15,619 nt of DNA from an archaeon (GTDB lineage: Archaea > Iainarchaeota > Iainarchaeia > Iainarchaeales > Iainarchaeaceae): the NCBI GenBank assembly GCA_024653865.1, contig JANLHD010000038.1, positions 1-15,619 of the forward strand, read 5' to 3'. Position 1 is the first letter of the stretch. Each line of letters starts with the position of its first letter. The notes beneath the pieces were generated by a model. That model was not told the DNA's origin. It ran no database searches and was given only the letters and a program-made list of their open reading frames with translations. Position numbers and translations under genes: made by a program. This document shows positions 9,197 to 11,743 of this stretch, one piece after another.

Positions 9197-11743
9197 ATGC
9201 CGGACAAGCCAAAAAAAGAACTGACTTTGCGCGTGGAGGAACCCGATCCCTCGCACGTGGGCCGCAACATTATCACTCTTGATAGGCAAACAAAGGAATC
9301 GCTAGGCGTCACTTCCGGGGACATTGTGGAAATAATAGGCTCTGAAAAAACCGCCGCGGTGATTTGGCCGGCGCGCCAGGAAGATGAGGGCAAGGGGATA
9401 ATCCGCATGGACAATCTCATCAGGCGAAACGCCGGCGTTGGCCTGGGGGAGAAGGTCTCTATTAGGCGCGCGGAATTTGCCGAGGCTAAAAAAGTCGTTC
9501 TCGCGCCCACACAAGAGGTTAGGATTATTGCGTCCGGCTATGATAGGATTCTTAAAAAGAATTTCATCGGAAGGCCGCTTTCCAAGGGCGACCGCGTGCT
9601 AATCAGCGTGTTCGGCTCGGGTTTCATTTACCAGGTAATCGACACAAGCCCAAGGGGCATTGTGAAGGTGACCGACTTCACCCAATTTGTGCTTAAGGAA
9701 GAGCCTGTCAAGGACGCACTTTCAGGAATACCGCGAATTGCGTATGAGGACATAGGCGGCCTTGAGGAGCAGGTGCAAAAGGTGCGCGAAATGATAGAGC
9801 TTCCGATGAAGCACCCGGAGATATTTCGCAAGCTCGGGATCAATCCGCCAAAAGGTGTTTTGCTCTACGGTCCGCCGGGCACGGGAAAGACCTTGCTTGC
9901 AAAGGCGGTTGCTAACGAAACCCAGGCGCACTTCATTTCAATCAGTTCCCCGAGCATTATGAGCAAGTTCGTGGGCGAGGCCGAGGAGCGCATTCGCGAG
10001 GTGTTCAAGGAGGCGGAAAAGAATGCGCCTTCAATAATTTTCTTTGATGAAATTGACGCAATTGCCCCCAAGCGCGATGAGGTTGTGGGCGAGGTTGAGA
10101 GAAGGGTGGTTGCCCAAATCCTAAGTGCAATGGACGGCATGGAGGCAAGGGGCCAGGTGATTGTTATTGGCGCCACGAACCGCGTGAACAGCATTGATGA
10201 GGCACTAAGAAGGCCCGGGCGGTTTGACCGCGAAATAGAAATCGGTGTTCCCTCAAAGAAGGGCAGGCTTGAGATTTTGCAGATCCATACGCGCGGAATG
10301 CCGCTTGCAAAGGTTGACCTTGATTATTTTGCATCAATCACGCACGGCTTTGTGGGTGCGGACCTCGAGGCGTTGGCAAAAGAGTCGGCAATGAAGGCGC
10401 TTCGGCGCTATCTTCCCAAAATCAATTTGGACGAGGAGACTATTCCTACGGATGTGCTTGAGAGCCTCGAAGTGAATAAAGGTGATTTTTTGGAGGCGCT
10501 AAAGGACGTGCAGCCCTCGGCCCTGAGGGAGGTCGCAATTGAGATCCCGAACGTCAAGTGGGCTGATGTTGGCGGATTGGAAAAAGTGAAGGATGAGCTG
10601 CGCCAGGCGGTTGAGTGGCCGCTCAAAAGGCCTGAGAGTTTCACTCGCATGGGCATAAAGCCCCCGCGCGGAGTTTTGTTCTACGGTCCGCCGGGCACGG
10701 GTAAGACCTTGCTTGCAAAGGCGGTTGCAACCGAATCCGAGGCGAATTTCATTAGCATTAAGGGCCCGCAACTAATTTCCATGTGGGTTGGCGAGAGCGA
10801 GAAGGGCATTCGCAAGGTTTTCCAGAGGGCGCGGCAGGTTTCGCCGGTGATAATTTTCTTTGACGAATTTGATGCGATTGCTTCGCGGCGCGGAAGTGCG
10901 GGTGACTCGGGGGTCAATGAGCGCATGTTGAACCAGTTGCTAACTGAACTCGACGGCGTCGAGGAATTGAAGGGGGTTGTTTTCATTGCGGCAACAAACA
11001 GGCCTGATTTGATAGACCCCGCGCTTTTGAGGCCCGGGCGAATAGACAAGATTATCTTGATTCCTGCGCCTGATCCCAAGTCGAGAAGGCTTGTGCTTGA
11101 AATTCACACGAAAACGGTTAGTCTCTCAAAAAGTATCTGGGAAGAGGGTTTTTTTAAAGCCGCCATGGATCAAATTGACAATAAATACATTAATGTAAAG
11201 AGGCAAACCGAATTGCAAGAAAATCACGAAAAAATTATGAAAAAAATACTTGAGAAAAGACAAGATTTTTTTAATTTGGTTGATGGCGGTTCTGAAGAAA
11301 ATCTTCCGGAATATTACTTTTTGGATTTTGAATTATTTAATGAAAAAATTAACCGTCTTGACTTCAATTTAAAAAAGAAAAAAGAATTATTAGATTCTTA
11401 TAAAAAAATCGTCGATTTTTTAGAACCCGAACTGGAAAAATTTTTGAATTCACTCAATTCAGAAGAGAAAGAGAAAATTGATCTCGCCTTGAAAGGTGTC
11501 TTTTTAAATAAAGTTGTAAAAAAAACGGAAGGATATAGCGGAGCCGACCTTGAGGGTGTTGTGCGCGAGGCTGTGCTTTTGGCTATGAAGGAATCAGATT
11601 TCAAGGCGAAGGATGTAAAGTTCTCCCATTTCGAGGAAGCTCTCAAAAAAATTACTCCCTCAATTTCCCCCGAAACCGAAGAGGCATATAATGCGTTCAA
11701 GAGCTCTGTTGCGCAGCAATTCAGGCCAACGTATGTGCGCTAA
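9197..11743 (+). CDS. cdc48: CDC48/VAT-type double AAA ATPase with a helical insert in D2
   Basis: An 848-residue protein; archaeal relatives (VAT, about 740 residues) are shorter. It is a hexameric unfoldase that threads proteins, often for the proteasome. Seen: the N domain (about 1-190, starting [20 protein letters not shown]). D1 has Walker A GPPGTGKT (225-232, K231), Walker B FFDEID (D284, E285) and [10 protein letters not shown]2 has Walker A (497-504, K503), Walker B FFDEFD (D556, E557) and LRPGRIDK. Both ATPase sites look intact. Between the D2 lid helix ending EIHTKTV (about 641) and [10 protein letters not shown] (from about 777), family members have a short linker. Here there are about 130 extra charged, helix-forming residues, encoded by DNA much richer in A+T than the rest. 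The frame is open throughout. ATG 9197 fits both the family N-terminus and the TATA box. Confidence 0.96.
11135..11525 (+). other. A+T-rich in-frame insert within the D2 module of cdc48
   Basis: Rows 11221-11280 and 11341-11400 each contain 12 G/C bases out of 60, whereas rows 10021-10080 and 10081-10140 of the same gene contain 26 and 33. Codon choice shifts as well, with TTA, AAA, GAA and AAT common here, while the flanks favour CTT/TTG/CTC, AAG and GAG. The encoded residues (about 647-776) are mostly charged helix and coiled-coil types. There are no cysteines or intein splice motifs (no His-Asn before the junction). Confidence 0.8.

Follow-up and report, generated by a model that had tools for sequence, protein, structure and literature searches.

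A predicted helical arm in the D2 lid of an Iainarchaeota CDC48-type ATPase, and its differing placement in D1 or D2 among related species

The stretch of DNA analysed in this work (hereafter the window; 15,619 nucleotides) is contig 13 of a source genome of 986 kb in 176 contigs, 80.5% complete, from the phylum Candidatus Iainarchaeota (NCBI name), which we take to be the same group as Candidatus Diapherotrites. It carries a gene for a CDC48/VAT-type two-ring AAA+ ATPase of 848 aa (9197..11743, +), whose translation matched the Pfam families CDC48_N, CDC48_2, AAA (twice) and AAA_lid_3 (twice), and thus possesses the N domain and the two AAA cassettes with lids of the CDC48/VAT group. Best-segment identity to the ten nearest loci (L002-L011) was 69-90%. 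Walker A and B motifs were intact in both rings, the translation containing two copies of GPPGTGKT as well as FFDEIDA and FFDEFDA; the D2 Walker A (10685..10708, +) had seven of its eight columns invariant across 48 aligned AAA domains. An earlier note, made from the sequence alone, had described both ATPase sites as intact and the reading frame as open, and both statements held, the frame running from 9197 to 11743 over 848 residues. On the opposite strand, a lipoprotein-like ORF (11779-12615, -) matched the protease-inhibitor domain Pacifastin_I (E 9.6e-11), a family typical of arthropods.

Directly upstream of CDC48 lies a stand-alone NFACT-R gene (8354..9151, +), encoding the RNA-binding domain of Rqc2/RqcH (PF05670, E 7.7e-35). 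Both genes were linked on the same strand within 400 nt in 51 of the 84 genomes of the phylum with CDC48; the remaining 33 comprised seven lacking a CDC48 start, one with 114 nt upstream, and 25 with about 1 kb or more upstream and no link under this criterion. Among loci L002-L081, NFACT-R was linked at 8 of 80, and at none from L012 to L081. By analogy with the eukaryotic link between Rqc2 and CDC48 in ribosome quality control, as given in the excerpt available of PMC6514570, the adjacency suggests that a similar connection may exist in these archaea.

The distance between the RPGR and GAD motifs in the D2 lid of the window protein was 173 residues vs. 51-56 in uninterrupted D2 lids, which gives a net gain of about 121 residues located between the lid motifs EIHTKT and TEGYSGAD, that is, between lid helices alpha5 and alpha6. 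The insert is therefore confirmed, in the lid position where the earlier note had placed it, although its size falls short of the 130 residues proposed there. The segment containing it (11117..11530, +) presented a GC content of 0.283, as compared to 0.534 in the preceding part of the gene (9197-11116) and 0.484 in the following one (11531-11743). In 200-base windows GC fell from about 0.53 in the gene to 0.26-0.32 inside the segment, where the lowest 60-base window sampled had a GC of 0.18. Codon choice itself is shifted beyond the effect of amino-acid content, GC3 being 0.291 vs. 0.582 expected from codon use in the remaining ORF (z -6.8; none of 1000 resamplings as low). The GC and codon-use scans that the note had advised thus bore out its reading of an A+T-rich stretch with altered codon use. 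This stretch is slightly wider than the net insertion and continues over the normal codons of alpha6 as far as GYSGAD, as expected of a swapped block. When the bases of the segment were shuffled 20000 times, every version contained stops (mean 13.1).

Composition was also compared with a sample of the same genome comprising 17 of the 176 contigs, one of them the window (126 kb in total with 112 ORFs; 20 further contigs were drawn and four reading N were excluded). None of the 1880 in-frame 414-nt windows outside the insert was as GC-poor, the minima being 0.365 for GC and 0.312 for GC3 in contrast with 0.283 and 0.275 in the insert. The GC3 dip within the ORF (-0.34) ranked first of 48 long ORFs, with a runner-up of -0.196. 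Moreover, GC3 of the insert was below the GC of sampled non-ORF DNA (38 of 138 third positions vs. 0.434; z -3.8), so that drift to mutational equilibrium, or simple relaxation, is insufficient to explain it.

The nature of the segment was examined by several searches. It was not an intein, in agreement with the earlier note: it ends [15 protein letters not shown], with no His-Asn followed by Cys, Ser or Thr, and no Pfam family, including intein and homing-endonuclease profiles, scored above cut-off in the insert. The best Pfam match was Nore1-SARAH (E 0.0041, 17.3 bits for a cut-off of 21); searches of this kind miss remote coiled-coil kin. A transposon footprint was rejected, the insert edges showing neither target duplication nor terminal repeat, as was a viral source, with no relative found among viral contigs by exact-pattern scan and no phage match to the insert. 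The searches found no donor, and no PDB sequence matched the insert profile better than E 0.27. Among the papers listed by literature searches on Cdc48 lids and insertions, no title or abstract opening described the insert. In four family members (L100, L101, L102, and L103) the D2 pore loop of CDC48 contained an intein-like segment, with edges placed by eye at VGE/S and HN/S, and L100 displayed a second one, also delimited by eye, in the D1 pore loop. A wholesale replacement of the D2 half in relatives, where best-segment identity was about 90% as far as residue 534 and 67% beyond it, was considered and dropped because those alignments ran into inteins.

The D2 AAA domain with its lid (10553..11740, +; 396 aa) was modelled by AlphaFold2 with a mean pLDDT of 84.3 and a pTM of 0.73, and the D2 domain of the related locus L002 was modelled from the same alignment of 48 sequences, in which three rows carry an insert (the window, L002, and one D1 domain of L011); the two models are accordingly not independent. 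Both displayed a long helix, a returning helix and an extended, well-predicted alpha6 running into the lid. Predicted helix 1 covered model residues 195-243 in the window (11135..11281, +; block pLDDT 57-72) and 195-245 in L002; predicted helix 2 covered residues 259-300 (11327..11452, +; block pLDDT 52-80) and was split into 253-285 and 289-298 in L002; the extended alpha6, which would form the joint between arm and lid, covered residues 303-324 (11459..11524, +; block pLDDT 86-96) and 301-322, respectively. A long helical hairpin is thus predicted in both long D2 inserts, consistent with the helical nature that had been proposed, and the 49 residues of the first helix would span about 74 Angstrom (at 1.5 per residue). 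Its shape is provisional, as pLDDT in the window model was 52-72 over most of the hairpin. The 50 Foldseek matches listed were all chains of p97, Cdc48, AFG2 or similar proteins.

Related lids were collected by a scan of GTDB representatives, from which the best 80 of 507 related stretches were kept as loci. The family of the window genome (G000) contained eight genomes; no CDC48 match was obtained in G006, and the others differed in their lids. A similar-sized insert occupied the same D2 site in L002 (SBBR01000038.1; genome G001), which belongs to another genus; its GC was 0.282 vs. 0.51-0.56 around it, and its GC3 z was -10.2. G004 (L100) had a shorter insert in D2, of 59 additional residues, in which the C-terminal module was again present. 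Lids of G002, G003, and G005 were uninterrupted in both rings, and G007, the genus-mate of the window genome, presented an uninterrupted D2 lid and a D1 lid with 68 additional residues.

In the survey of the phylum, CDC48 was found in 84 of 87 genomes at E 1e-100 or better, with measurable lids for D1 in 77 and for D2 in 68 of the 84; the lid scan missed lids with a deviating motif, rings were assigned by motif, and four lids of the paralogue of family f21 were reassigned by hand. Inserts occurred in 4 of the 68 D2 lids (three of type A) and in 18 of the 77 D1 lids (six of type A and four in the second CDC48 paralogue of family f21), counts that rest on a narrower motif than the widened one applied to L002-L081. 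We name type A the Iainarchaeota CDC48 lid insert present in D1 of G007, G034, G038, G044, G058, and G064 and in D2 of G000, G001, and G004. The window insert is assigned to it by its position between alpha5 and alpha6 and by a C-terminal module of about 44 residues, the three D2 inserts having been tested as a group.

Other segments were found in these lids. Type B inserts in the same loop of the D1 lid (genomes G053, G055, G056, and G057; loci L182, L185, L184, and L179) look like winged helices, a character deduced from the sequence and one sub-threshold Pfam match. A further distinct lid insert was present in G068, and the f21 paralogue carried long, helical-looking ones. The D2 lid insert of G034 (L194 1307-1606, -; GC3 z -3.9) looks, by eye, as though the C-terminal helices of the same lid had been partly duplicated. 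Outside the phylum, the widened motif revealed a different D2 insert at the same site in L032, L063, and L067 (146 residues from RxGR to GAD vs. about 52); the records of L032 and L067 bear the title Methanoperedens and that of L063 uncultured archaeon.

Codon use of the type A inserts was not uniform. GC3 was host-like (z -1.2 to +1.8) in the inserts of G007, G038, G044, and G064 and intermediate in G004 (z -2.0), the D1 insert of G034 (z -2.0), and G058 (z -3.4). The earlier note had read the window insert as a horizontally acquired or fast-evolving domain. Its composition does look foreign (GC3 z -6.8), but the insert is not a one-off, given the similar-sized D2 insert of L002, the short one of L100 and, as shown below, a homologous D1 module in six genomes of the order. 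The contrary finding that the note had named, the same insert with host-like composition across the lineage, was obtained in part, in the four host-like genomes just cited.

The C-terminal module of the window insert (11384..11527, +; its final residues being ordinary lid) matched D1-lid inserts elsewhere with an hhalign probability of 95.6 (E 1.1e-8). When the CDC48 flanks were cut, the three D2 inserts still matched the six D1 inserts of type A over 44 columns with a probability of 94.5 (E 8.3e-8), whereas 60 column-shuffled controls of this comparison reached at most 1.0. Flanks inflate such scores, the D1 type A and f21 paralogue sets giving 92.7 with lid flanks and 0.2 without, and for this reason we rely on flank-cut comparisons only. 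Against type B and the f21 paralogue type, the D2 set scored 0.1-0.2. These profiles show, at the level of sequence comparison, that the D1 and D2 modules are homologous. The D2 set scored best, 94.5, with the D1 inserts of its own order, and four other groups of D1 inserts gave 30.2, 0.3, 0.2, and 0.1; with other archaeal families the scores were 30.2 for f50/f110, 0.3 for f93, 0.1 for f28, and 8.8 for pooled non-Diapherotrites. The D1 type A set gave 46.4, 61.6, 2.4, and 85.0, respectively. Six comparisons were each accompanied by 40 shuffled controls, none of which scored above 2.4. The closest match of the D2 module is thus with the D1 inserts of its own order, and other archaea may harbour remoter relatives of it.

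The type A modules are short and evolve quickly. In a pairwise test of the nine inserts, 20 of 36 pairs exceeded z 3; the window insert did so with G001, G038, and G044, but not with its genus-mate G007, nor with G004. One column was invariant among the nine. The two long D2 inserts (G000 and L002) shared only 26-27% identity, and BLASTP aligned them weakly, across 26 residues with an E of 0.003; a profile built from these two gave mostly chance matches beyond themselves and led to the D1 insert of G038. The type A profile matched 26 places in the 87 genomes of the phylum at E 0.5 or better, 14 in CDC48 and 12 weak ones elsewhere (E 9e-4 to 0.32); candidate free-standing copies of the module in G029 and G006, the two inspected of these 12, were judged to be chance. 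In a set of 389 relatives the profile had matches at E 0.001 in 28 genomes; 14 of these lie outside the phylum and account for 18 places. Of the 11 out-of-phylum places examined, 10 were D1-lid inserts of CDC48, the scan of G324 giving no CDC48 ORF. Family f28 (genomes of about 2 Mb, several with two CDC48 genes; L241, L242, L243, L248, L249, and L251) presented an insert about 60 residues long in the D1 lid; it was related to those of the f21 paralogue (probability 75.4) and without detectable relation to the D2 inserts. According to the profile match, one helical module sits in ring D1 of some species and in ring D2 of others; its distribution is patchy.

This patchiness was mapped on a CDC48 tree of 73 genomes, computed quickly by maximum likelihood after removal of the insert columns. 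It was built from stretches sharing 50% identity or more with the window protein, a selection that biases it; 11 of the 84 genomes were not used, namely four for which the f21 paralogue stood in, four divergent ones, and three with fewer than 420 columns. On this tree, D2 type A required three changes for three tips, D1 type A six for six tips, the three-state character nine, and any lid insert 12. Neighbours were unlike each other: G000 (D2) and G007 (D1) with support 86, G001 (D2) and G002 (none) with 99, and G004 (D2) and G005 (none) with 96. This indicates either that the module moves by recombination or that gain and loss are very frequent. In G000 and G001, the foreign codon use speaks for a recent arrival, and the host-like one in G007, G038, G044, and G064 fits an older residence; sister genomes without the insert suggest that it is dispensable.

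A lid arm of unusual form, with placement in D1 or D2 differing among related species, is real. Taking all these factors together, we tentatively prefer, at somewhat below even confidence, the interpretation that the arm was recombined into D2 and serves for docking or regulation in the way of the M-domains of ClpB and ClpC. On this view, the insert would form a helical arm between alpha5 and alpha6 of the D2 lid, and its C-terminal module of about 44 residues would be one member of a lid-insert family located in D1 in other genomes of the order. Its placement in D2 in the window's family would be most simply explained by recombination between conserved lid sequences, either from a D1-type lid block into the D2 lid or from an incoming AT-rich gene of a relative, and in two genomes the arm would have been lengthened into a long antiparallel, coiled-coil-like hairpin. 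Lid domains of AAA+ proteins rotate during the ATP cycle, and the arm would accordingly act as a lever at the ring edge: moved by the lid, it could dock a substrate or adaptor or restrain the ring. Docking or regulation is, by analogy, the most likely role.

Doubt is cast on any such role by the possibility that the alpha5-alpha6 loop is a permissive surface on which unrelated segments land and from which they go, with little or no function. We consider this rather unlikely, even though it accommodates the patchy tips, the 12 changes needed for any lid insert, the sister genomes that lack one, and the occurrence at the same site of types with no detectable relation (type B, probability 0.1 with the D2 set, and that of L032, L063, and L067); the retention of a homologous module in both rings among members of the order, and 138 codons that stay open where shuffles average 13.1 stops, speak against an ornament of this kind. 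The recombination itself could be dispensed with if the D2 insert had been present in the ancestor of the family and lost in several species, its AT-rich codons reflecting local selection, for instance for slow translation, instead of a foreign origin. Such vertical inheritance, to which we give a low probability, fits the AT-rich inserts of G000 and G001, from different genera of one family, and the short D2 version of G004 with the same C-terminal module, but not the host-like composition of the homologous D1 inserts of G007, G044, and G064, nor the AT-rich codons of the adjoining ordinary lid up to GYSGAD, which a swapped block would be expected to show. It is improbable that the arm touches the neighbouring protomer and holds the hexamer, like the D1 post-alpha7 helix of Rix7: lid insertions do occur in D1 and D2 of Rix7, the D1 one packing on the neighbour, according to the excerpt of PMC6355894, but they follow alpha7 instead of lying between alpha5 and alpha6, and the predicted helices of 49 and 42 residues exceed, in our judgement, the need of such a contact. 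A misassembled or chimeric contig, suggested by the sharp change in composition at the edges, was rejected as hardly credible, because the frame is open across both edges with proper lid sequence on either side and a similar-sized insert stands at the same site in the independent assembly of L002.

The resemblance of part of the D2 arm to the D1 module suggests that arms are swapped in and out to alter the motor. Retargeting of CDC48 is usually ascribed to separate cofactors, many of them bound to the N domain. An arm found in either ring, coming and going between neighbouring species and keeping a shared module, would, if true, allow the motor to be rewired by a part of its own chain. A broader version, which we regard as unlikely, is that of a transferable cassette: archaeal lineages would exchange helical arms, both from one ring's lid to the other's and from species to species, through recombination at conserved lid motifs, retargeting the unfoldase with the motor untouched, as an archaeal counterpart of the M-domain suited to either ring. 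The pair G000, with the arm in D2, and G007, with the arm in D1, makes the rewiring idea directly testable.

As compared with known systems, the window protein shares with CDC48/VAT (VCP-like ATPase) the N domain, D1, D2, and intact motifs, 5g4f being the nearest solved chain by sequence, and differs by about 121 extra residues in the D2 lid. The D1-lid inserts of the archaeal families f28, f93, f50, and f110 occupy the same lid loop, but in D1; those of f93 and f50/f110 are weakly similar to the D1 type A set (probabilities 61.6 and 46.4), a relation of the f28 type to the D2 inserts is not detectable (probability 0.1), and no solved structure of the f28 type was found by sequence. In Rix7, a relative of CDC48 with lid insertions in both rings, deletion of the D1 insertion produced a moderate growth defect, as reported in the excerpt of PMC6355894; its insertions are eukaryotic, much shorter and placed in the other lid loop, after alpha7. 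The same excerpt counts ClpB among ATPases with lid-region insertions, and that of PMC5699869 describes coiled-coil insertions of ClpB and ClpC that repress the motor and on which adaptors act. The M-domains of ClpB/Hsp104 and ClpC are coiled-coil insertions in an AAA module of a two-ring motor, which the window arm would resemble through its helical hairpin, predicted with pLDDT mostly 52-72; they sit in AAA-1, whereas the arm lies in D2, and no sequence relation was seen between them in Pfam and PDB searches, which miss remote coiled-coil kin.
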